In this document: positions 1 to 38,086 of the stretch, piece after piece | Numbering within the stretch: the first letter of the stretch is position 1 | How the letters are laid out: each line of letters begins with the position of its first letter | Origin: a virus | IMG/VR virus record: IMGVR_UViG_3300042914_001451 | Location: 1-38,086 of that record | Strand: one strand, 5' to 3' | DNA: 38,086 nt | Position numbers and translations under genes: made by a program | The notes under the pieces: model-generated | The model's input: the letters and a program-made list of their open reading frames with translations, nothing else | What the model was told of the DNA's origin: nothing | Database searches by the model: none

Positions 1-133
1 CACCCGCGCCCGATACAATCAACTACAGGCAAAACAGCGTGATGTACTTACTCTTGACTATTGCCGCCGCCGTCCTCGTTGAGTGGCTATTTCCCGACGA
101 TAGATAACGCGGGTTCGGCACCCTCCGCCATCC
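1..133. repeat. Terminal direct repeat, left copy
   Basis: These bases recur at 37954-38086. The first 126 bases are identical, then position 127 (G) corresponds to A at 38080, and the last six bases match again. The simplest reading is that the contig is circular and was cut with an overlap. A true short terminal repeat is possible, but the P22-type terminase and portal favour headful packaging with circular permutation. The mismatch turns an Ala codon of the primase-helicase C-terminus (GCG) into Val (GTG). Confidence 0.95.
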
Positions 134-2381
134 GCCGCAGCTCTGACCGCGCAAGGGTTGCAAACTGAGGGTGTGCATAGACATGCTTCTTGGTTGGGAA
201 CTCACGAGAGTGCAGCCGACCACAATCGACCCACCCCGCATCCCGTAGCGCGTGCATGAGCGCGGCAGAGACGACCTTGACGCCGGAGGGTGCCACGCCT
301 TGCAGCCGGTCGCAGATGGCGTAGAACGGCGAGGCAATGACGCCACGGGCAAAGTCGCCTTGGCGTTGGCGAATCATCTCGACTAAAAACGACTCGGCGG
401 TGCTCATCGCCGACTCGATCATGATGATTTTAGCCTCGGTCATGGGCGGCGCAGCGCCGGGGTTGAAGGCCGACACATCGCGGGCGTCGAGCCACGCGGT
501 GACAGCCTGGAAGCCGCCCGCGTAGTACCAATTCCAGAGCGCGCGCGCCTCAGCGGGCGGCATACGGTCGGCCTCGCTCCACACGACGAACCAGCGGCGG
601 TCATCCGAAGGGAGGCTGATGGCGGCGCGCTCGTTGCTGAACGACACCACCAGTACGCGGTTCAAAGCATCGTAAGGGTGCAAGCCCTTGCGGTTGACCG
701 TGAGCAGCTCAGGGGGCGCGGCGATCACGGGCTTGAGGCTGTTTTCAAGCGCGCGGCGGTCTTTAGCCTCGGCCTGACGCAACTCGTTGATAACGATAAC
801 CTCAGATTCCAGCGCGTAGCCCCACTGAGAATTCAGCTCCTCGTTACGCACCGTCGTGACATTGACGCGCTGGTCGCCGCCGATTGCCCAGAAGAAGGGT
901 GCCCAGAGCGTGTCCTTACCGGAGCCTGGCTTGCCCGCGTGCAGCACGGCATGGTTGATTTTCTGGTTGGCGTGCTGGCGCTTGTAGGCCATCACATCAA
1001 GCACATGCTCGCGTTCGGCGGGGTCGGGAATCATGCGCTCGGCGTGAGCGAGCCACGGACTGACATCGCCCGCGCTCACCGCCGGCCGCGCGTCGCGCCA
1101 GCGGTTGCCGTAGACGACGCCGTTACGGCTGACAAGGATGGACTCGCCAGCGGCGAATGTGACGCCCGCGAGCACACGCGCGCCCATCGCCTGACGGTTC
1201 TCGTCAAAGCAGACGGACGCTTCGATGCGTCGGTTGTTGTGGATAGAATGGCAGGTCACGTGCCGGTACAGCGCGTTGAACACCCCGCGCGCGATTTCGT
1301 GACGCTCGCCTAAGTCAAAATACGCGTCATCGCTGAGAACATACGCGAAACGCTCGTACCATTTGGACTTTTCGACGCGACCTAGCTCGCGGCGCTCGAC
1401 CTGGGCGATGACCTCGGCGGCGGTGTCGGGGAACTCCTCGGTTGGGGTAATCTTCGACAAAGCGGCCTCCATCTTCTTCGCAAGCAGGTCATCACGCAGG
1501 CCGTAGCCCGTCTTGGGGCCGCCCTCGGCCTCGACCCAGCGCAAGAACTTCTCGCTGTTCCAGTCGCTGCAATGGCCGTGGAAGCAAGTATAGCTGCGCG
1601 TGACGGGGTGATACCGCCCTTGCGTGTCGGCAGTGGTGTGCTCGGCGTGGTTCGGGCACACAACGCCATACCAGCCCTCGGGGTTGGCCTTGGCGAGCAG
1701 CAGCCCGCGCTCCTGTACCCACTCCAACACGCTGTCAAGGCCGTCATCTTCGATGGCGATGCCCTGTATATACGCCGTGTCAACCTCACCTGGCGTGACG
1801 CCACAGGCTGTAACAATCTGCGTTACGGTAAACTCGCGGTCGGGGTGGAACTCGGTAAGCACGGCGGCGAAGTTGTCGCGGCCTTCCTTAAGATTAACGC
1901 TGCCTTCGATGCGGAAATTACGCACCGGATTTACCGCGCCGGGGTCGGTGAACCCAGCCTCGGCCATAGCCTTGATCGCGGCGCTGAACTCACCCTTGGT
2001 CGGCTGATCGTCAAGCGCGAAGGTGTAACCCCATTGGAAGTTGCCGGGGCTGGTTTCAAGCTTCCACGTGGGCTCAATCGGCGGCACCTTGGACTTGGTG
2101 CCGATGTCATCCAGCACCATAAACGCCACGCGCTCAACATTAGGCGCAGACGCGGACAGCTTGTCCGTCATGCGGTCAACGATGAACGAGCCCGTGTTGG
2201 CATACCACGCCCCCTCGGGGTTGCGCATGTACTTGCCATAAAGCCCCGGCGGCCATGTGTAGCGCGGCGTGCCGTCCTTGTGCTTCAGGTGCTCGCCCTT
2301 GCGGACGATTGGCACCTGGCGCACGAATAAAATTGTTTCCCCTTCTGGAGCGATACTGTTAATATATTCAGCGAACTTCAT
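87..2381 (-). CDS. Primase-helicase (AEP-like primase fused to SF3/DUF5906-type helicase)
   Basis: 764 aa, likely the replicative primase and helicase. The N-terminal half looks like an archaeo-eukaryotic primase: an acidic LDDIG motif near residues 90-94 and an R-x-E-G-S-V-N motif near 156-162. A Cys/His cluster follows at about 242-271 (CPNH, then TCFHGHC), typical of a primase zinc site. The C-terminal half carries a Walker A GKPGSGKDT at 483-491 and a hydrophobic strand ending in NEL near 527-533, as in DUF5906/virulence-E-type phage helicases. The ATG has a GAGGG Shine-Dalgarno about 6 nt upstream. It is the last gene of the minus-strand replication operon and its stop nearly abuts the end of the convergent plus-strand early operon. 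Primase and helicase roles are inferred from motifs; polymerase activity of the primase domain is untested. Confidence 0.85.
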   Translation of the reverse strand: MKFAEYINSIAPEGETILFVRQVPIVRKGEHLKHKDGTPRYTWPPGLYGKYMRNPEGAWYANTGSFIVDRMTDKLSASAPNVERVAFMVLDDIGTKSKVPPIEPTWKLETSPGNFQWGYTFALDDQPTKGEFSAAIKAMAEAGFTDPGAVNPVRNFRIEGSVNLKEGRDNFAAVLTEFHPDREFTVTQIVTACGVTPGEVDTAYIQGIAIEDDGLDSVLEWVQERGLLLAKANPEGWYGVVCPNHAEHTTADTQGRYHPVTRSYTCFHGHCSDWNSEKFLRWVEAEGGPKTGYGLRDDLLAKKMEAALSKITPTEEFPDTAAEVIAQVERRELGRVEKSKWYERFAYVLSDDAYFDLGERHEIARGVFNALYRHVTCHSIHNNRRIEASVCFDENRQAMGARVLAGVTFAAGESILVSRNGVVYGNRWRDARPAVSAGDVSPWLAHAERMIPDPAEREHVLDVMAYKRQHANQKINHAVLHAGKPGSGKDTLWAPFFWAIGGDQRVNVTTVRNEELNSQWGYALESEVIVINELRQAEAKDRRALENSLKPVIAAPPELLTVNRKGLHPYDALNRVLVVSFSNERAAISLPSDDRRWFVVWSEADRMPPAEARALWNWYYAGGFQAVTAWLDARDVSAFNPGAAPPMTEAKIIMIESAMSTAESFLVEMIRQRQGDFARGVIASPFYAICDRLQGVAPSGVKVVSAALMHALRDAGWVDCGRLHSREFPTKKHVYAHPQFATLARSELRRMAEGAEPALSIVGK

Positions 2382-5395: not shown

Positions 5396-6043
5396 TCACG
5401 CAGCGCGACGCCGACGGGTCGCAGCGGCTGGCGGCGGAGTGTCATCACCACCCTCCGGCTCGTTAGCGACTTCGCCTTCCATGGACACCCACTCGACGAT
5501 CTCAAAGACCGGCGTGAAGATGCGGCCATAGCTCTTGTGCTGGTAGTGCTCCTTCTTCAGATGCACGACCGGCACCGGCTTGCTCTGGTCACGCTCGACC
5601 TGCGCGGCGATGGCTGCTGCCAAAGCCTGCACGGCACGCTTGCCGCCCACCGACGTGGTGCTGTAGCGAGCCTCAAGGCCCACATCCTCACCCGAGATGC
5701 ACTTCAAGCTCATGCCGACCTGCGTCTCCCATCCCTTCTTGCTCTGCGGCGGTGCCGGGTCGAGCTCAGGCAGCGGCTGTGACACCGACACCATCTTCTC
5801 GCCCAAGACCTCGCCGTCGCCCCAGGCAATGAAGCCGTGGACGAACGAGAAAGGATTGATTGCCCACTTGCTATCGCCCTCGGCCTCGGTTTGGTCCGCG
5901 CCGAAAACCCAGTGGCCCGTCTTGTCCATCTTGAGGATGGCCGTACCCGCAGGGCCGACATCCACTTCGATGCTGCGAAGGGCGGTGGACAGGGAAGAAA
6001 CCGCAGGCAATCCTGCTTTTGCAAACGCTGTGATATTAGACAT
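5396..6043 (-). CDS. Replication-module protein, possible ssDNA-binding protein
   Basis: 215 aa, not recognised with certainty. It lies between a Cas4/DUF2800-like nuclease and a methyltransferase-polymerase pair; in many phages that slot is held by DUF2815, an ssDNA-binding protein. The sequence is rich in beta-prone stretches with aromatics (GHWVFGAD, INPFSFVHGFIAWGDG) and ends in an acidic/proline region followed by an arginine-rich tail (TRRRRAA). The ATG has AAGGAG 7 nt upstream, so expression should be strong. The ssDNA-binding role is inferred from position and composition only. Confidence 0.7.
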   Translation of the reverse strand: MSNITAFAKAGLPAVSSLSTALRSIEVDVGPAGTAILKMDKTGHWVFGADQTEAEGDSKWAINPFSFVHGFIAWGDGEVLGEKMVSVSQPLPELDPAPPQSKKGWETQVGMSLKCISGEDVGLEARYSTTSVGGKRAVQALAAAIAAQVERDQSKPVPVVHLKKEHYQHKSYGRIFTPVFEIVEWVSMEGEVANEPEGGDDTPPPAAATRRRRAA

Positions 6044-11781: not shown

Positions 11782-13995
11782 TTATCGCCTCGAAAAGTTA
11801 GAGTTTGTAGGTTCCGGTTCCGGTTCCCTCGGGTCAACGGCGAAGGATCGGGCGGCAAGGGCGACATCGCGGCTAAAGCCGTTCCAGCTTTGCGCGTTCT
11901 TAAACTGCGCGAGCACCTTGTTGCGTTCGGCGGTTGGCAAAGCGTCAAGCAACTGCGCGAACGAGCGACCCGACTTAGCGGCGTTGACGACGGCATCGGC
12001 GGTAGCGTCTTGCACCTTGGCTTCAATCGCCGCCAACACTTCGTTGGTAGCCGTTGTGGCTCGGGTGAAAAACGGAAAGCGCAAACGTGCCCCGCGCTTA
12101 GCTTGGATTTTCTCTAAGGAAGCGCGCCCCGCACGGGCTTGCGCCGCCGCTTTAAGGTCAAGGTCAATGATGGACTGCAATTTGTCAAGGAACGGCTTGT
12201 CGCGTGTTATTACTTTGCCAATGTTGTACTTGCCGCCGCCAAAAATCTTTTCGACGACCTTGGGGTCTTGCCCAGAAAGAATATTAAGAATCTTGGTCTT
12301 GGCAGCGGAGGTGCCTTTGCGCCATTCGGTCTGCAAGACATCCGCAAGTTCCATCTCGTCAATCTGCGTCATGCCCTGCTCAAAAGTGCGCAGGTAATCC
12401 TTCCACCCCTTGCCGCCGGCTTTTTCGATGGCGTCGTCCATGACCGGGCGCAACCGCCCGAGGATTTCGGCGGCCATGCGCCGCTGCGCTTGGGCATCGG
12501 CGTTTGGCATCAACTGTTGGATGACGCCGGAGATGCCGTTCTTGCGGATGGCATAGACCGCTTCCGGCGTAATGACGCCATTCTGTGCCGCCCAATCATC
12601 AAACATCTGCCGCACTTGAGGCAGCGCCCTCGCAAGCGTTGGGTTGAGGGCGACATCTGGATCGCGCAGCATACGGTCAATGGCACCCGTAAACTTGTTC
12701 GCCGTAATAGGAGCAAGCCCACGGTCTTTCATACTCTGGAGCGTGTTTTCGGCGGCGCGGGCAGCGCCGCCTGCTTGCAGCGATTCGGCGGCAGCTTCCG
12801 TAGCACGGACATCTGCACGGTCGGCCAACTGGCCGGGGAACGTGTACCTTGCCGGAGGGCGCGGAGCCGCGCCTACCGTTGCAGCGCGAGCGCCGCCGCT
12901 TGCCGACCAGTTCTTTGCCCAATCCAGCGCCCTATCAGCAGCGGGCACAAACCGCCGCACCCGATCCACCGCCCCCTTGGCGGCGGCACGGCTTTCCTCG
13001 GCCAACAACTCAAGCCGAGGCATAACGCGCCCAGTCTGCCCCGCCGCCTCAAACGCTTCCTCGCGCATTGGCGTAGTGATGCGGCCAAGGGTTTCCTTCG
13101 CTCCTGCCCGTGCGGCACGTGCTTCGGTCTGGGTTGCGCCGCCCGACATACGGGCAAGATAGTTGGCGATGTCTTGCGTTTCGTTTTTGCGAAACGCATT
13201 GACCACGCCTGCTGGGTCAGCATCTTCGGCGGTTCGGAGCAATGCTTGAAGCACCGGCAAGTCCAAGTCGGCTGCTACGCGACTAGCGGGGGCATCCGGC
13301 TGCGCCTGCATGGCAACGCGGAGAGCGTTAATCTCGTTGCCGATAGTCTGTTGAACGAGCTTGTTAGCGCTTACGTCAGCAGATCGACCAAGTACGGCAT
13401 CCGCAACAGCCCCCACGCCCTTGGACAACACCTTGGCTACGGGCGGAGCTACAAACGCAATGCCAGTGCTTATTGCCGCGCCGGTACCGGCTTCCTCGGT
13501 GCCTCCGGCAACAGCCCCCGCCGCCGCGCCAGGTACCGCCGCGCCAACAGTTCGCACGCCAATCTGCGCTGCTTTCGGCGCCGTAGTCGCAAGCCCACTC
13601 TGAAAACCGCCAGTCTCAAAGGATTTAGCGGCGGGCAAAAGGTATTTAGCAACGCGAGGCGCGCCAGCGGCTACCGCTCGCAGCCCCGCACCAGCTACGG
13701 GGCCAGCCGCCAAGCCAACACCGAGAGAAAGCGCCGTTGCGCGATCTTCCGGTGTTGTTACCGCGTACTGTCTGGCAAACAAAACAGGGTTGGCGAGGGA
13801 CAACAACAGTTTAGCAACGGGTATAAAACCCGTTTCAGGCTCGGGAGCGGCGGCAGGTTCGGCAATTGCGGCGGGCGCCGGCGTCTCTTGCTGCCGCGCA
13901 AGCGAATAAGCTTGAGCCACCTTGTCAAACTCAGCCGTGCCCTTCTTGTCCTTGTTACGGACAATCCAAGTCGCGTAATCTTGCGCCGAGGCCAT
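11782..13995 (-). CDS. Large ejection (internal virion) protein
   Basis: 737 aa, rich in Ala, Gly, Arg and Glu and mostly helical. The N-terminus (YATWIVRNKDKKGTAEFDKV) followed by a proline/alanine linker is typical of podovirus DNA-ejection proteins. Residues about 85-190 form a low-complexity, Ala/Gly-rich hydrophobic region that could insert into membrane. It is the last of three adjacent ejection-type genes, corresponding by position to P22 gp16/gp20/gp7. No transglycosylase motif was seen. The exact role of each ejection protein cannot be assigned from sequence. Confidence 0.75.
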   Translation of the reverse strand: MASAQDYATWIVRNKDKKGTAEFDKVAQAYSLARQQETPAPAAIAEPAAAPEPETGFIPVAKLLLSLANPVLFARQYAVTTPEDRATALSLGVGLAAGPVAGAGLRAVAAGAPRVAKYLLPAAKSFETGGFQSGLATTAPKAAQIGVRTVGAAVPGAAAGAVAGGTEEAGTGAAISTGIAFVAPPVAKVLSKGVGAVADAVLGRSADVSANKLVQQTIGNEINALRVAMQAQPDAPASRVAADLDLPVLQALLRTAEDADPAGVVNAFRKNETQDIANYLARMSGGATQTEARAARAGAKETLGRITTPMREEAFEAAGQTGRVMPRLELLAEESRAAAKGAVDRVRRFVPAADRALDWAKNWSASGGARAATVGAAPRPPARYTFPGQLADRADVRATEAAAESLQAGGAARAAENTLQSMKDRGLAPITANKFTGAIDRMLRDPDVALNPTLARALPQVRQMFDDWAAQNGVITPEAVYAIRKNGISGVIQQLMPNADAQAQRRMAAEILGRLRPVMDDAIEKAGGKGWKDYLRTFEQGMTQIDEMELADVLQTEWRKGTSAAKTKILNILSGQDPKVVEKIFGGGKYNIGKVITRDKPFLDKLQSIIDLDLKAAAQARAGRASLEKIQAKRGARLRFPFFTRATTATNEVLAAIEAKVQDATADAVVNAAKSGRSFAQLLDALPTAERNKVLAQFKNAQSWNGFSRDVALAARSFAVDPREPEPEPTNSNFSRR

Positions 13996-13997
13996 AT

Positions 13998-15272
13998 TTA
14001 CTGGCTCCCAAGGATAGCGTCAGCTTCAGCAAATATGCTGTCGGTTGCCCCCGCGTCCCCAATTACAAATTGCCCTTGGCGGCGCTCGTACAGTTTTAGA
14101 ATAGTTTTGCCTGCCTCTTTACGGATTTTATTAGGGAGCGTTGGGTCTGCTAACTGACCTGCGGCTTCGCGGTAGCTTTGCGTGTCCGCGTTGGACTGCG
14201 GTCCCTCAAAGCGCGGAACAAGCTTAAGAACTTGATCAGCAAGCGGCTGCAACTTTCCAGTGGCAATAGCTCCTTCCGTGGCTTGTCCAAAAAAGCCCGC
14301 TGCAACATCGGCGGCGCGACCAATGCCGCTGCCCGTAGATTGGTCGATAAGCCCGCCGTCCTTAGTGGCTTCGCGCAAGTTTGCCGTAACTTCAGCAAGG
14401 TCGCGTTGTAAAGTTTCGCGGGCTGCTTTTGTTTTCTCAAACGTAGCCGAAGGTTTGCCAGCGCCCGTTTCGCTTTTTAGCAAGGTGCCAAACTTGTTGT
14501 AGAACCGCACGGTACCATCAGCGGCGGTTTCGGTGCGAGCAACAACATTAAGTTCATCCCCGGCGGCGCGATTCGCCTCCGCCGCAAGCCGTGCCTCCTG
14601 CTGACGCTCCAAGGCGAGGCGCTGTTGCTCGTAAGGTGTCAGCGTGACGTTACCCGACGACCCTGGCACAACGGTCGCGGGGCCACCGCCTCGGGTCGGC
14701 GTAGCAAGCACACGCACAGTCCCGCCAAGGTTCTGCGAGGTGAAAGTCTGCTCGGTCTGCTGCGCGGCGGTCAGCGCCGCCCTTTGAATCTGCTGCAAGC
14801 CTCGCGCTAGAACTTTCGGATCGTCCGGCGCAGCGTCAAACATGGCAGCGGTTTCGGGCGAAAGCAAACCCGACTGCACCGACTGCGCTACCCAAGGTGC
14901 AAGCGTAGTCTTGTTGAGCGCGGTAGGGTTGCTTAAAAACGCGCCGGCTTGACTTGCGACAAGCGCCGCTGCTTTTTCGGCGTTACCTAACTCCGTGCCG
15001 CGCATTGTGGCGCGCTTGCTTGCAATATCAGCCAACGAGGTTGCCACGTCGGCGCCAGGTTTGCCAAACCGCAAAAGCTGGTTCTGCGCGTCGGGCTTGC
15101 TAAGATCAGCGGTGGAAAGAAAGTTGCGCAGCTCTGCGGCGCGTTGCGCTTCCAGCATGGCGGCTTCGTCTACCGCACGCTGCCGGCGTGTCGCGCGCCC
15201 GGCCTCTAGCCCCTGAACGTATTGCCCGAGGACGTTAACGGGCTCCAACTGGGTTGCACCGATGACTGCCAT
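13998..15272 (-). CDS. Ejection (internal virion) protein
   Basis: 424 aa, alanine- and glutamine-rich, mostly helical, with long charged helices at about residues 20-50 and 215-240 (YEQQRLALERQQEARLAAEA). It lies between two other ejection-type genes with 2-3 nt gaps, the same arrangement as the gp7-gp20-gp16 block of P22-like phages. It probably leaves the capsid with the DNA and helps build the trans-envelope channel. Assigned by position and composition. Confidence 0.72.
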   Translation of the reverse strand: MAVIGATQLEPVNVLGQYVQGLEAGRATRRQRAVDEAAMLEAQRAAELRNFLSTADLSKPDAQNQLLRFGKPGADVATSLADIASKRATMRGTELGNAEKAAALVASQAGAFLSNPTALNKTTLAPWVAQSVQSGLLSPETAAMFDAAPDDPKVLARGLQQIQRAALTAAQQTEQTFTSQNLGGTVRVLATPTRGGGPATVVPGSSGNVTLTPYEQQRLALERQQEARLAAEANRAAGDELNVVARTETAADGTVRFYNKFGTLLKSETGAGKPSATFEKTKAARETLQRDLAEVTANLREATKDGGLIDQSTGSGIGRAADVAAGFFGQATEGAIATGKLQPLADQVLKLVPRFEGPQSNADTQSYREAAGQLADPTLPNKIRKEAGKTILKLYERRQGQFVIGDAGATDSIFAEADAILGSQ

Positions 15273-26863: not shown

Positions 26864-28561
26864 TTAAGCGGCCAAGTTTGCCATGGCCTTCCAAGTGCCA
26901 GGCGTACCGCTTGTTACACAAACCCAACCGGGGGTTCCGCCAGCGGCAGGATTTATTTTGTAACAAATATCGCCTTGACTCCACGTTCCGGTAGTGGGGA
27001 CATCTTCGTCATAGGTAATTTTAAGCTTACCAAGCGTAAAATAGTTGACCGCGCGTTGGTAATATACGTTGCCTGTATTGTTAGCTATAAGACCGTAACC
27101 ACGTATGTTATCGGTAATAGCAGAAAGACAAGTGTTGCCCGTAACAGTGCTACCCTCGGCGTTCAAACGAATGTCGTTTGTAGAAAAATTCTTTAGCGAA
27201 TTTCCGGTGATCGAGTTGTTAACGCCTTGAGCATACTCCGCCAAAATTCCGTACGGGCAAGTAAACGCGGAGTACGTAAGTATGTGGTTGTTGCTAATTT
27301 GGCAGCCACGATTTTGAGAGTTTGACACCTGATTTGCGATATGAATACCCGCAACAGATGAAATCCCCGTGGTGTTTGCCAGCGCAATGTAGTTGTTAAT
27401 TACGCTAAAGTTTCCGCCAAAATTTCCTGAGCCGTCGTTTGTGATTGTAATGCCTGACTGATAGTTATAGTCCAAAATGCAGTTTGCAATGTAGACGTGC
27501 GTAGCGCCCGAACCGTAAATGCCGTATCGATTGCCAAAAGTTAGCGTATTGCTAATCATCCAGCCTTCAGTGCCTGAGCCAAGCCCATCTATGAAAATTC
27601 CGGTTCCAGTGTTATCGCCGTTAAACGAACAGTTTGTAACAACATTGTTCGCGCAAAGATACCGCGCTCTAAGCCCGTTAGGCCCGAACCCGGTTCGCAC
27701 ATTGTCAAATACTGCCGACCATATCCAGTCTGCGTATATACCGTACAAAAAGCCGTCTATAAACACGTCTCGGTAACAGTGATTGAACGGCCTGTTTACA
27801 GTGTCGCCAGCAACAAGAATTCCGGTGTAACTGTTTGGCGTCGTCGTATAGCGAACGGCTTGCGCCAACTCCATATCATAGATGTTGACGTTGCTAACTT
27901 TATTGATAACGATGCCGTCGTTAGCTAGACACAGAATTACGCTAAAGTTTTTCTGCGCCCCTTGAATAGTGATCGCTCTGTTAATTTGAAGCGCTGCGCT
28001 GGTGATGTAATTTCCCGGTGGAAAATACAACACTCCGCCAGCAGGGGTTGCATCAATAGCAGCTTGAAGCGCCGCAGTATCGTTGGTAGAGCCGTTACCC
28101 ACGGCGCCAAAATCTTTTACGTTTATCGTGTCTCGCAGTTTAGACTGCACGCTACGCGTAACCGCTCCAGTACCGCCCTGCGTAAACAAAATATTCGCAG
28201 AGCTAGTATCAATAGTGCTGACCGTCTGTACGGTTGAAAACTTAACCAACGCGCCGACGTGCAAGCCCTGCGTAAACGTGACGGTATTGTTGTCGGTCTC
28301 CACGTACGAAGAACCTTCGTACTGGTTGACGCCATCAACAAACACCATCAGGTTGTTTGCGCCAGCGGCGTAGGTCATCGTCGTCAGATTGAAGACCGTC
28401 TGGCCGGCAGTTGCGGTCTGGACTTCCTCAAACCCAACGTAGGTCTGAATGTCCGACGCGTACGCCTTCTTTGTCACGTTGTCTTGAACGACAACGAACA
28501 GATCGGTGCCTTCGACCGGCGAGTCTACAAGCGGAAGGTCTGAAATCTTAACGATTGCCAT
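26864..28561 (-). CDS. Tailspike with N-terminal attachment domain and beta-helix
   Basis: 565 aa. Residues 1-125 form a virion-attachment region (ISDLPLVDSPVEGTDLFVVV and a later DGVNQYEGSSY). A linker and INVKDFGAVGNGSTNDTAAL (about 148-167) open a pectate-lyase-like right-handed beta-helix with regular N-N turns through about residue 500. The C-terminal module (GTWSQGDICYKINPAAGG, then GWVCVTSGTPGTWK) is a carbohydrate-associated ending seen in many tailspikes. Probably depolymerises or binds capsule or O-antigen. The ATG is preceded by GGAG, which lies inside the stop of the upstream small gene. Lower GC than flanking genes suggests exchange. Confidence 0.87.
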   Translation of the reverse strand: MAIVKISDLPLVDSPVEGTDLFVVVQDNVTKKAYASDIQTYVGFEEVQTATAGQTVFNLTTMTYAAGANNLMVFVDGVNQYEGSSYVETDNNTVTFTQGLHVGALVKFSTVQTVSTIDTSSANILFTQGGTGAVTRSVQSKLRDTINVKDFGAVGNGSTNDTAALQAAIDATPAGGVLYFPPGNYITSAALQINRAITIQGAQKNFSVILCLANDGIVINKVSNVNIYDMELAQAVRYTTTPNSYTGILVAGDTVNRPFNHCYRDVFIDGFLYGIYADWIWSAVFDNVRTGFGPNGLRARYLCANNVVTNCSFNGDNTGTGIFIDGLGSGTEGWMISNTLTFGNRYGIYGSGATHVYIANCILDYNYQSGITITNDGSGNFGGNFSVINNYIALANTTGISSVAGIHIANQVSNSQNRGCQISNNHILTYSAFTCPYGILAEYAQGVNNSITGNSLKNFSTNDIRLNAEGSTVTGNTCLSAITDNIRGYGLIANNTGNVYYQRAVNYFTLGKLKITYDEDVPTTGTWSQGDICYKINPAAGGTPGWVCVTSGTPGTWKAMANLAA

Positions 28562-28564
28562 TCA

Positions 28565-28729
28565 TCACTCCAGCAGCAGTTGGCCGCCGTCTTCCTGAAC
28601 CAAGTTGTCGCCAATTTCGGTAAGCAGGTTGCCCACCGAGGCACCGCTATCAAGCGTGCCAGAAAACAGCGTTGCCACGGCCCCAAGGCCGATAGCCACG
28701 CCGTTTCGCAGTGCGACCCCCCAACTCAT
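28565..28729 (-). CDS. Small hydrophobic protein upstream of the tailspike
   Basis: 54 aa. The ATG overlaps the upstream stop as ATGA and its end carries the tailspike ribosome-binding site. The first half is hydrophobic (GVAIGLGAVATLFSG) and may cross a membrane; the second half is acidic (LLTEIGDNLVQEDGG). Not a recognised family. Tight coupling on both sides supports its reality. Confidence 0.65.
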   Translation of the reverse strand: MSWGVALRNGVAIGLGAVATLFSGTLDSGASVGNLLTEIGDNLVQEDGGQLLLE

Positions 28730-29028
28730 CGAATGTTAATCGGCTTCGCGTACACGTCGCCACTATCGGCCACGCGAATCGCGCTTACTCGCCAGGGCGC
28801 GCCAGTGCCTTGCGGCACAATGAACGGAATCGGCGTGAACGCCGGGATTGGAGTGCTGGAGGTCGTCGCGGTGACGCCCTCTCCCACTACCACGTAGGCC
28901 GGGGTCGTGGACCACACCACCACGCCCTGCGGGCCGGACTGCCAAGTCGCCGTAGAGCCGGCGGTGCCCGTGTACGCTACCGTACGACCGGGGTATACGG
29001 CATCGGCCATCGGATTAAGAAGTTCCAT
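28726..29028 (-). CDS. Structural-module protein, unknown function
   Basis: 100 aa, beta-rich with many Val, Thr and Gly (GRTVAYTGTAGSTATWQSG), ending in VYAKPINIR. GAGG lies about 8 nt before the ATG. It sits between portal-linked genes and the tailspike cassette. It could be a small head-tail or spike-base component. No motif recognised. Confidence 0.7.
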   Translation of the reverse strand: MELLNPMADAVYPGRTVAYTGTAGSTATWQSGPQGVVVWSTTPAYVVVGEGVTATTSSTPIPAFTPIPFIVPQGTGAPWRVSAIRVADSGDVYAKPINIR

Positions 29029-32320: not shown

Positions 32321-33849
32321 CAGGCTCCCATCCAACTGCTTGCCATGCCGTTGCCACCCTGGCGGGCGACGACTCGTCTTGGTGCATCGCGTGCCTCACG
32401 GCTTGCGAGCGGGTAGGCAAAGGTGACGGCGAGCGCGTCTGCCGCATCCGGCGACGCTTGACCTCTAGCCTTCATCTCCTTCTTGCCCTCCAAGAAGATT
32501 GTCCCCGACGAGTTAGGCTTGACGTGTGGCCCGCACAGGTCCGACTTGAGTAGCCGATCAGACGGGATGCTCGCCGTGCGTAGCCATTCCCGCATGTCGC
32601 CCCACATCTCGGCGCGCTTGTTGCCCCACATCACGGGGTTCTTGGCCTTCCAGCCAAAGTTTACCCCACGAACCTTATACCTCTGCTCTTTCAATCGGTC
32701 AAGTATGCCATAGCCGAGCCCGCCCTCGTCAATGACCGTGAGCGCCGGGTTGTACTCCTCAATCGCGTCGATGACGCGCCCGACGGTGGCCATAGTGTCC
32801 TCGCCCCGGTAGCGCTTGATTGCTACGATGTCGCGCCCTTGTCGGACGACGATGACGGTGCTGTCGGCGCCGGATCGTGCGGGGTCCACCCCAATGACCC
32901 GAGGAGCTGTCTCATCCTTGTAGCGGGCGCGCGCCACAGCCTCGTCCACAATTCGCGGAGCAATGAACTGGTCGTCTCCGTCGGAAGGGAACTCTCCGTA
33001 GACCTCGACTTTAGCTTGGCTACTATCTGCTCCATACTCGGCGATGATCTGCTCGTAGACGGCTTTGTCCGTGTCTTCGACTTGGCGCGCGTCGATGTTT
33101 TGCGTTTGCCAGAATTGCCTTTTCGCGTTGAAACACTCATAAAAATACCCCTCGTTGCGTCGTGGGTTACTGAAGGCGAGCCAGAAGCGATTAGGCGTGT
33201 TCTCCGTAAAGAAGCCCGCCGTCACCGACCAGATGGGGTCCGGTATACCCGACGCTTCGTCGAAGATGACCATTACACCGTCGAAGTTGTGGACACCGGC
33301 GTACGCGTCGGGGTTCTCCTCCGACCACAGCCGCCCCTCAACCGACCAGTACCGCGTGCCTTTCTTCAGGTCGCGCTCGACGATCTCCGCGAGCCACTTG
33401 GCCGGCATGACGCGCGTCGCGCTGACCTCAAACCAATGACTGTTGAGCAGCAACGAGAGCCACTTAGTCACCTCGGCCCAGGTGACCGAGCGTAGCTGGG
33501 CTTCCGAGTTAGCCGACACGATGATAGTCGAGCCGATGCGCGTCGATAGCATCCACAGGATCAGCCAGGACACCAAGGCCGACTTACCGATGCCGCGCCC
33601 CGAGGCCGTCGCCATGCGCAGCACGTCGTACCCCGTCGCGTTCTTGTTGCGGGCGATGTGAGCGGCCACCTTGCGCAGCACCTCGCGCTGCCACTTGCGC
33701 GGTCCTTGGAAGTTCTCCAGCGGCGTGCCCTTCTGCCCCCACGGGAACGCGAACAGCACGAACGCCTCGGGGTCGTCCTTGACGCTCGGCGACCAGAGCC
33801 GAGTCATCAGTAGCTGCTCGTCCTCGGGGCTATATATCGGAAGTTGCAT
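32320..33849 (-). CDS. terL: Terminase large subunit
   Basis: 509 aa. ATPase domain: Walker A-type TASGRGIGKSAL (residues about 81-92), Walker B VMVIFDEAS (192-200), and an adenine-binding Gln in the RKWQREVL segment (51-58). Nuclease domain: VIGVDPARSGAD (Asp322), VIDEGGLG (Asp374) and ASPDAADAL (Asp468/471), the RNase H-like acidic triad. It drives DNA into the procapsid and cuts it, probably by headful. It overlaps the small-subunit gene by 20 nt. Confidence 0.95.
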   Translation of the reverse strand: MQLPIYSPEDEQLLMTRLWSPSVKDDPEAFVLFAFPWGQKGTPLENFQGPRKWQREVLRKVAAHIARNKNATGYDVLRMATASGRGIGKSALVSWLILWMLSTRIGSTIIVSANSEAQLRSVTWAEVTKWLSLLLNSHWFEVSATRVMPAKWLAEIVERDLKKGTRYWSVEGRLWSEENPDAYAGVHNFDGVMVIFDEASGIPDPIWSVTAGFFTENTPNRFWLAFSNPRRNEGYFYECFNAKRQFWQTQNIDARQVEDTDKAVYEQIIAEYGADSSQAKVEVYGEFPSDGDDQFIAPRIVDEAVARARYKDETAPRVIGVDPARSGADSTVIVVRQGRDIVAIKRYRGEDTMATVGRVIDAIEEYNPALTVIDEGGLGYGILDRLKEQRYKVRGVNFGWKAKNPVMWGNKRAEMWGDMREWLRTASIPSDRLLKSDLCGPHVKPNSSGTIFLEGKKEMKARGQASPDAADALAVTFAYPLASREARDAPRRVVARQGGNGMASSWMGA

Positions 33850-34306
33850 ATTCTGCCGTCAGGGCTCGGGTAGCGAGCGTGGTGGGCGCGCGGGTCAATG
33901 CAGCCGGTTCATCCGGCAATACTCGGCCTTCAATGACGCGAGATTCTGCCTCTTGCAGCGCGGCGATGACGCTGATCTGCTGCTTGACATCGACCTGTAC
34001 CTGTTGCTTGGCCACCCAGCCGTGCACATGCTGGAGGATTGCCAGAGAAGCCTTTGAATCGCCATTGCGAGCCGCGTCACGCAGTTGGTTCGCGGCCTCA
34101 AACTCACTATCTGCACGCCCTTTGGCCTCCGCCATCTCAGCAAGCGGGTCCATCTGACACAGCCGCCGGTACTCCGCCGGCAACAACCCCGCCGCCAGGG
34201 CAAGGCTATCACCTCTCAGCCCGAGGGCCGCTGCGTCATAAATAGCCTGTAGCCGCGCCTCAGTAGCGTTCAGTTGCCGTGGCGCGTGCGGAAGCGATTT
34301 GAACAT
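33830..34306 (-). CDS. terS: Terminase small subunit
   Basis: 158 aa, helical. The N-terminal part (ARLQAIYDAAALGLRGDSLALAAGLL, residues about 17-42) looks like an HTH-bearing region, followed by a central oligomerisation helix (AEAKGRADSEFEAANQLRD). Placed directly before the large subunit and overlapping it, and first in the late operon, next to the non-coding control region. It should recognise the packaging start site. The ATG has only a distant AAAGG, so initiation may be weak. Confidence 0.82.
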   Translation of the reverse strand: MFKSLPHAPRQLNATEARLQAIYDAAALGLRGDSLALAAGLLPAEYRRLCQMDPLAEMAEAKGRADSEFEAANQLRDAARNGDSKASLAILQHVHGWVAKQQVQVDVKQQISVIAALQEAESRVIEGRVLPDEPAALTRAPTTLATRALTAEYATSDI

Positions 34307-34348
34307 GTCGCAACACTACCTTTCATGTAAGCAAAAGACAAGCGATGT

Positions 34349-34363
34349 GCAGGATTGTCCTGC
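34349..34363. repeat. Short hairpin upstream of terS
   Basis: GCAGGA and TCCTGC form a perfect 6-bp stem with a TTG loop, in the 5' leader expected for the terminase mRNA (43 nt ahead of the terS ATG). No T-run follows on either strand. It may be an mRNA leader structure or a protein-binding site. Confidence 0.45.
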
Positions 34364-34735
34364 CGGGAGGCCGCGATCCACAACAACCGTGTGGCCTGTG
34401 TGCCGGGGCGGAGATTGCCTTAGATGGTGGGGCTCATAACCCCTTCAGCTACCTCCCGGTCGCTACGTGCGCATCACGTCAGACATCGCCACGCAAGATT
34501 AGCATAAGGTTTTGGCTTACGGGTTGGTGGTTAAAAAATAAAAAAATTTTGTGCAACCCCTCCGTACCAGGTACAGCCCACGCGCGGGCCGGCCCACCCC
34601 CTCAATTGCAAATGATTCTCGTTCGCATCCCGCCTGGGCGCGGTGGGCTGCGTGGGCAATGTGGGCAACGGCTGCGTGCCTCGCGCTGCTAGCCGCCTAG
34701 CGTGTGGGTCATGTGGGCAATTCTTTGGCCGGAGC

Positions 34736-34788
34736 ATTTGTGGGCAATGTGGGCAATTTGTTTTCGATTGCCCACATTGCCCACAAAT
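34736..34788. repeat. Perfect 22-bp inverted repeat
   Basis: The arms 34736-34757 and 34767-34788 are exact reverse complements with a 9-nt spacer (TTGTTTTCG). Each arm contains one pair of the 9-bp motif flanked by ATTT/AAAT. It could extrude as a cruciform or form a hairpin on ssDNA. No T-run follows on either strand, so it is not a standard terminator. Confidence 0.92.
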
Positions 34789-34879
34789 CGGAGCGCGTGG
34801 GCGATTTGTGGGTCATGTGGGTCAAATGGTCACGGAAAAAAAATCGGAGCGCGCCCAACGAAATGCACGCCACACGATC

Positions 34880-34905
34880 CTGACTGTATGTTTATACAGT
34901 AGTAT
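34880..34905 (+). promoter_or_regulatory. LexA-controlled promoter (SOS box)
   Basis: CTGT-ATGTTTAT-ACAG at 34884-34899 matches the E. coli LexA box (CTGT-N8-ACAG with AT-rich centre). TAGTAT (34900-34905) follows directly, as TATAAT follows the box in the recA promoter. A weak -35 (CTGACT, 34880-34885) is too close for ideal spacing, so the core promoter may be weak. It points towards the early genes beginning at 35155 and its leader would include repeat copies 12-17. Confidence 0.7.
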
Positions 34906-35092
34906 TTCTTTCTTAGCTTAAAGATAAAGAGATAACCCACATTGCCCACAACTCATATCCCGCGCTGTAAATATAGGTACTTGCGCGTGGGCAATTCGAT
35001 CCGAAAACATAGCCCACAACATGACCCACAATGCCCACAACCCTTGCCCGAAAATGCCTTGCACCTTGACAGGCGTCTATGTAAAAGAATCC

Positions 35093-35154: not shown

Positions 35155-35406
35155 ATGTTCGACCATGCAGATTTTGAAACCAACCCGAAAAAGTACGAAC
35201 TGTTCCGCACCGCCCGCGTCAAGTCGCAGGTGTTTACCGAAAACGGTGAAGACGACTTGGCCGCTGGTCAGTTTGTCGCTATCCGCCACATTCGAAACGC
35301 CTACAACGGGATGCGCCGCCGCGATGAGCCCGTTTACAGCATCACCACCGGCGGTAAAGTGTGGGGGGTTATGTTCGCGTCCACTCTCGCCGACTTTACG
35401 CTCTGA
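35155..35406 (+). CDS. First early protein, unknown function
   Basis: 83 aa, mixed alpha/beta, no recognised domain (KKYELFRTARVKSQVF; VYSITTGGKVWGVMFAS). First gene after the control region, with GAGG 8 nt before the ATG. First-position early genes often encode host-takeover or regulatory proteins, but nothing in the sequence proves this. Its leader repeats before the next gene. Confidence 0.75.
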   Translation: MFDHADFETNPKKYELFRTARVKSQVFTENGEDDLAAGQFVAIRHIRNAYNGMRRRDEPVYSITTGGKVWGVMFASTLADFTL

Positions 35407-37854: not shown

Positions 37855-38035
37855 ATGGTGGATACGGCGGCTATGCCGCTATATCGATCTTACCCGGCGG
37901 GAGGCGCGGCGATCCCTTGGTAAGCGCCTCCCGCCGGTCACCGATAAGGCGCACACCCGCGCCCGATACAATCAACTACAGGCAAAACAGCGTGATGTAC
38001 TTACTCTTGACTATTGCCGCCGCCGTCCTCGTTGA
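37832..38035 (+). CDS. Small basic early protein at the end of the operon
   Basis: 67 aa, very basic (WWIRRLCRYIDLTRREARRSL), ATG at 37832 inside the end of the previous gene. It resembles nothing I can name. It is the last larger gene of the plus-strand operon; the convergent primase gene ends only a few bases beyond, across the circle. Its start is not supported by a clear Shine-Dalgarno. Confidence 0.55.
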   Translation: MARVNLTEWWIRRLCRYIDLTRREARRSLGKRLPPVTDKAHTRARYNQLQAKQRDVLTLDYCRRRPR

Positions 38036-38086
38036 GTGGCTATTTCCCGACGATAGATAACGCGGGTTCGGCACCCTCCACCATCC
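37954..38086. repeat. Terminal direct repeat, right copy
   Basis: Copy of bases 1-133 with a single difference (A at 38080, G at 127). See the left copy. It marks closure of the circular genome map and should be counted once. Confidence 0.95.
37995..38060 (+). CDS. Possible 21-aa membrane peptide
   Basis: ATG 37995 opens MYLLLTIAAAVLVEWLFPDDR, a single hydrophobic span with an acidic tail; the same frame is present at 42-107. It overlaps the end of the 67-aa gene and the C-terminal codons of the opposing primase gene. AGG lies about 10 nt upstream. Length alone makes chance likely; included because the hydrophobic pattern and the chain of overlaps fit this operon. Confidence 0.2.
   Translation: MYLLLTIAAAVLVEWLFPDDR

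Follow-up and report, generated by a model that had tools for sequence, protein, structure and literature searches.

A probable iteron origin, with the phage's own primase-helicase as its likely reader, in a family of freshwater podoviruses

The repeat array at positions 34652–35038 of the virus genome analysed here is very probably the iteron part of the phage replication origin, read by the primase-helicase that the phage itself encodes. The tail of that protein is the likely reader because the repeat word and the tail change together among relatives. The system is best read as a self-loading initiator-helicase origin, similar in kind to those of P4 and SaPIs, whose word and reader turn over together unusually fast. 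The window, 38,086 nucleotides in length, is the whole of virus record IMGVR_UViG_3300042914_001451. Its ends (1–131 and 37956–38086) share an overlap of roughly 130 bp, identical but for one difference close to the tip; thus the genome, though classed as linear, is probably complete and either circularly permuted or terminally redundant.

The array lies in a gap of about 0.85 kb between terS, its left neighbor (33830–34306, minus strand), and the first early ORF, which starts at 35155 on the plus strand. It is real, and consists of 17 degenerate 9-bp units of the form GTGGG[C/T]NNN; GTGGG[C/T] is common to all of them, and positions 6–9 vary. An earlier note, made from the sequence of the window, had counted 17 copies of one motif. 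The number of units holds, but the exact word GTGGGCAAT is present in only eight of the 17. Four units differ from it by one mismatch (GTGGGCAAC, GTGGGCGAT, GTGGGCTAT, and GTGGGCATT) and five by two or three (GTGGGTCAT three times, GTGGGTTAT, and GTGGGTCAA). Outside the array the exact word occurs once in the window, at 5859. With up to one mismatch allowed, the whole window contains 20 matches against 9.6 expected, 12 of which fall within the 387 bp of the array.

As the same note had stated, 14 of the 17 units form seven spacer-free pairs, and all seven were located, on both strands and always as direct repeats. Four are on the plus strand: GTGGGCAAT-GTGGGCAAC at 34652–34669 (units starting at 34652 and 34661), GTGGGTCAT-GTGGGCAAT at 34704–34721 (34704 and 34713), a double GTGGGCAAT at 34740–34757 (34740 and 34749), and GTGGGTCAT-GTGGGTCAA at 34808–34825 (34808 and 34817). 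The minus-strand pairs are a second double GTGGGCAAT at 34767–34784 (34767 and 34776), GTGGGCAAT with GTGGGTTAT at 34932–34949 (34932 and 34941), and GTGGGCATT with GTGGGTCAT at 35021–35038 (35021 and 35030). The two double GTGGGCAAT pairs face each other as the left and right arms of a perfect inverted repeat, 34740–34784; Rfam matches over this inverted pair are chance hits to microRNA models, far below gathering scores. Single units are found at 34797–34805 (GTGGGCGAT, plus strand), 34987–34995 (GTGGGCAAT, plus), and 35009–35017 (GTGGGCTAT, minus), and a weak eighteenth unit, GTGGGCTGC, abuts the first pair on its left (34643–34651, plus).

The left and right iteron clusters are separated by a core of 106 bp (34826–34931), whose length is kept in most close relatives. 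Its right half, from 34850, has a GC content of about 41–43%, compared with about 58–60% over most of the genome, and is a candidate unwinding region. GC skew of the window gave no clear origin signal. The core also contains a LexA-box-like palindrome, CTGTATGTTTATACAG (CTGT-N8-ACAG), at 34884–34899. Palindromes of this form occur in the array cores of 31 of 86 loci, where 1.35 would be expected from shuffled sequences; in the GTGGGGTA clade the palindrome is often the perfect LexA box TACTGTATATATATACAGTA, and other clades carry other palindromes (TTTTATGCGCATAAAA).

Between the array and terS, on the minus strand at 34330–34492, lies a separate conserved element of about 150 nt, found at 66 loci with 71–100% identity. 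It folds as a multi-branched RNA whose closing stem and several hairpins keep their pairing in 33 distinct rows, with compensatory changes such as GCGATGT/ACATCGC versus CAACGT/ACGTTGC. The element matches no Rfam family, and taken by itself its folding energy is unremarkable (z −0.94).

Comparison with more than 150 related viruses, including IMG/VR relatives of the primase and terminase, reveals that the array is kept in the same place across a large family of environmental (freshwater) podoviruses. The conserved architecture consists of iteron clusters flanking an AT-rich core, beside terS and the early operon. The word itself differs from clade to clade but is nearly uniform inside one genome. 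About 15 classes can be distinguished, GTGGGYMAT, TTGGGTCAT, ATGGGTCAA, GTGGGGTAG, and GTGGACAAT among them; their assignment was made partly by hand and was checked by eye, since GC-rich low-complexity sequence confused the automatic motif finder. Spacer lengths stay constant within the near clade, where the units, each at its fixed position, change among GTGGGCAAT, GTGGGTCAT, and GTGGGTAAT. The layout persists in farther clades with other words, which include TTGGGCAAT, TTGGGTCAT, ATAGGTCAT, TTAGGTCAA, ATGGGTCAA, GTAGGCAAT, GTGGACAAT, ATGGACAAG, GTTGGCAAT, GTGAGTCAT, GTGGGGTAG, TTGGGGTAG, GTGGGTAGT, and AATTGTCAT. A blastn search of a phage collection with the 0.8-kb region gave no matches.

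The pairs had been taken in the earlier note to indicate a dimeric 18-bp recognition unit, and retention of the paired layout in relatives was set beforehand as the test of that idea. With one representative per cluster, same-strand neighbors are spaced by 9 bp in 120 of 257 cases, the next commonest spacing being 10 bp (27 cases). The paired layout is therefore conserved, as the proposal predicted, though some clades have 10-bp spacing or unpaired units, and GTGGGGTAG and GTGGGTAGT arrays are mostly unpaired in the strict sense.

Three relatives display features of separate interest. In L009 (MW202483) a single intergenic region holds two repeat sets, at 28200–28590 and 28786–28985, with ATGTAAAC-type words and GTTGGTAGT pairs. 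In the cultured Chi-like Salmonella phage iEPS5 (L341), which has a homologous replication module, GGTTACAA repeats flank an AT-rich stretch at about 13700–14150, beyond the primase gene, and are a possible counterpart of the array. The only match to the helicase half in a cellular genome is L337, a contig binned as Rhodoferax, whose array is of the TGTCCACA type. Burkholderiales are thus hinted at as hosts, though the contig may be a phage binned into a MAG.

Were a single protein the reader, it should change whenever the word does. Among the window's genes, those for the primase, SSB, DUF2800, SNF2, and VRR proteins and a 69-aa protein are widespread in the 27 genomes compared. For the primase-helicase, identity over the whole protein is misleading, and the swap becomes visible only when the protein is split into halves. 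In one clade with nearly identical flanks, the primase half (residues 1–330) is mostly 93–99% identical whatever the word, whereas residues 330–764 fall into two types whose C-terminal domains share 44–51% identity. Type one (L155, L144, L152, L142, L220, L227, L228, and G023) is accompanied by GTGGGGTA arrays and type two (G021, G022, L229, and L154) by ATGGGTCA arrays. Searches of all retrievable contigs with each type yielded 33 contigs of type one, 32 of them with GTGGGGTA arrays, and 19 of type two; TGGGTCA arrays are present in all 18 type-two contigs that reach the array. The association has a Fisher p of 7e-13, uncorrected for relatedness.

Plain physical linkage does not account for this association, since the early genes between the helicase end and the array are 92–100% identical across the two types and the genes on both outer sides are likewise shared; for these early genes and the primase half together, identity across the types spans 90–100%. 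In L142–L155 and L230–L275, phages that are otherwise similar have reassorted the small genes of their early operons almost freely, yet array and helicase type remain locked. The one exception is L151, a ATGGGTCA array with the other helicase type. Taken alone, this contig first spoke against the primase as reader; it was overruled by the additional contigs and by the position of a single switch, for L151 agrees at 98.5% with a GTGGGGTA-type contig until about 5.6 kb, where it reaches the array, and then changes over. A chimeric contig or a single real crossover would explain it.

The C-terminal half of the primase-helicase is thus the most likely reader of the array, and the earlier suggestion that the repeats are iterons of a replication initiator gains support from the way the word tracks this half. 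That note had named four possible readers. The primase-helicase survives, and TerS, the HTH-phosphoesterase, and an early protein do not. The HTH-phosphoesterase was not found in 17 of the 30 records searched (four short contigs may not reach the gene), and is missing from full-length array-bearing records, including G021, G022, G023, and G025. Neither the family-A polymerase nor the sliding-clamp homologue, also considered, follows the word.

The note had further held that no Rep-like protein is recognizable in this genome. That view no longer stands: judged by its predicted fold, the primase-helicase is a recognizable initiator-type protein, with an SF3/D5-like helicase and a C-terminal winged helix. 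The gene (87–2381, minus strand) encodes 764 residues that comprise an N-terminal primase half, the helicase (PF19263, DUF5906), and the winged helix, predicted for residues 650–764 (codons at 90–434); the protein matches PF19263 and PHROG DNA primase families. An AlphaFold2 model of residues 331–764, built with 56 homologues, shows the helicase and winged helix with a pLDDT of 89.9. The best solved match to the fold of the helicase plus C-terminal half is the NrS-1 CTR (TM 0.63, about 14% identity), and the SaPI5 primase-helicase (7ola) matches more weakly. A search of the PDB with the isolated winged helix yielded weak, non-significant matches, most of them to winged-helix proteins.

The model also places R726 (codon at 204–206, minus strand) in the wing, between its two strands. 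In a scan of 86 non-identical C-terminal domains with an assigned word, in 40 clusters, this residue is the best predictor, among all C-domain columns, of G at iteron position 1, a rule that had been spotted by eye beforehand on the same data. Arginine occupies the position in all 42 sequences whose word begins with G, and is replaced by K, G, A, V, P, Q, S, T, or H in 39 of the 44 that have another base there; arginine also accompanies a non-G word in L073/L084, L331, and L112. Inside the window clade itself, L036 (word TTGGGCAAT) has changed R to K (SKE) alongside G to T. A counter-example outside the scan, MW202483, lacks the arginine and has the word GTTGGTAGT; it failed the motif filter. 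Phylogenetically independent contrasts on a tree of the helicase part only gave five changes in the same direction and none opposite (p 0.0625, which misses 0.05 with a small n). A contact between the wing arginine and G1 is put forward as a candidate. Weaker signals tie H724 to positions 3–4 and link V704/S705, where the recognition helix begins, with positions 6–7; these pairings are offered as hypotheses.

We infer that binding, ring loading, melting, and the start of replication all take place at the array. The winged-helix domain (about residues 650–764) would bind the 9-bp units, two to each 18-bp direct pair, and the bound primase-helicase would load helicase rings to the left and right of the AT-rich core. 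Once the rings had melted the core, the same protein would prime, and the phage family-A polymerase would then copy the DNA. In relatives, reader domain and repeat word are swapped or mutated jointly.

It might be argued instead that the array is an operator, bound by a protein that regulates both the early operon and, divergent from it, the terS operon, and that its link to the initiator is incidental. The array does occupy a divergent intergenic region immediately upstream of the early genes, towards which its right-hand units keep a conserved spacing. However, none of the early genes tracks the word; they are freely exchanged between word classes, with identities of up to 100% across two of them, and the word follows the helicase C-terminal half instead. 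A consensus promoter scan gave nothing above chance, and no promoter is therefore claimed for the region. We regard an operator in place of an origin as unlikely. Autoregulation by initiators is common, so that an operator role may be additional to the origin.

Still less probable is a host reader such as DnaA. The reverse complement of the window word, TTGCCCACA or TTACCCACA, resembles the DnaA box TTATCCACA, which the window clade fits at seven of nine positions (eight of nine for the TTACCCACA variant), and the early operon of MW202483 encodes a small DnaA-like HTH protein. Yet the words of other clades, such as GTGGGGTAG, AATTGTCAT, and ATAGGTCAT, are unlike the box. DnaA boxes hardly vary between hosts, and TTATNCACA-type 9-mers are conserved among them, whereas the array word changes by clade; nor would a host reader explain why the word follows a domain of the phage. 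A packaging (pac) site read by TerS, suggested by the adjoining terS gene, is very improbable indeed: the word does not follow TerS, which is 96–97% identical between contigs whose words differ. Finally, the DUF2800 RecB/Cas4-like nuclease, which alone seemed to follow the word in a first comparison of G021/G022 with G023 and might have read the array as Chi-like sites, is refuted to the point of near certainty by L220, L227, and L228, where the nuclease of the ATGGGTCA group (97–99% identity) is paired with GTGGGGTA arrays.

The origin proposed here, with the primase-helicase as its reader, most resembles the Rep-ori systems of SaPIs and other PICIs. There, as in the window phage, an SF3/D5-like helicase is often fused to a primase (SaPI5 has the fused form), and a C-terminal winged helix is likewise predicted with high confidence in the window protein. 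SaPI Rep and, in vitro, SCCmec Cch2 bind origin iterons through the C-terminal domain (PMC7581432), and the word specificity of this domain is paralleled in the window family by co-segregation. In Gram-negative PICIs two iteron sets always flank an AT-rich region (PMC6092414), as they do in the window array. The differences are also clear. The SaPI/PICI origin lies directly downstream of rep, but in the window about 3 kb, with a convergent early operon in between, separates the 3′ end of the initiator gene from the array, which adjoins terS; the iterons are abutting pairs of 9-bp words, and even close relatives have different words.

Other initiators share some of these features. P4 alpha, with its ori/crr, combines primase, helicase, and an origin-binding winged helix in one protein, the winged helix binding the origin repeats (PMC4234260). 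According to the literature its primase is of the Toprim type, but Pfam and NCBIfam scans matched no Toprim family in the window protein. The P4 origin-binding domain is not among the best 50 fold matches of the isolated winged helix in the PDB. NrS-1 primase-polymerase, whose CTR is the best solved match over the whole helicase and C-terminal half despite the low identity, is proposed to start at 8-nt recognition sites that occur twice per genome (PMC7102993) rather than at an iteron array. The Vibrio PLE satellite is a known case in which the origin covaries with the DNA-binding domain of its initiator, the two being swapped as a set while an origin-directed nuclease exerts pressure on them; cognate pairing has been shown experimentally (PMC8263062). 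The PLE RepA, however, is a satellite protein of the RepA_N family with no predicted helicase or primase activity, and its iterons are semi-palindromes of about 30 bp, in contrast to the 9-bp words of the window array. In its mode of action the proposed system resembles those of SaPI/PICI, SCCmec, P4, and PLE. It departs from them in how far the array lies from the initiator gene, in having its 9-bp words paired, and in how many word classes there are.

Since reader domain and word change together, the origin of one phage can probably not replace that of a close relative. It is conceivable, if on the whole doubtful, that this turnover is the product of an arms race, in which origins are re-keyed against satellites, competing phages in the same cell, or nucleases that are directed to the origin and mimic the initiator; the array would then be an identity tag that determines which genomes an initiator replicates, and wing and helix would form a readable code for the choice of bases.

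For a large family of freshwater podoviruses, most of them uncultured, the analysis identifies a probable origin and a probable initiator. The relatives further supply a natural data set of about 15 initiator–iteron pairs, among them a near-isogenic domain swap, along with a candidate contact between a wing arginine and G1. These pairs make directly testable how an origin and its initiator can change jointly without loss of function.
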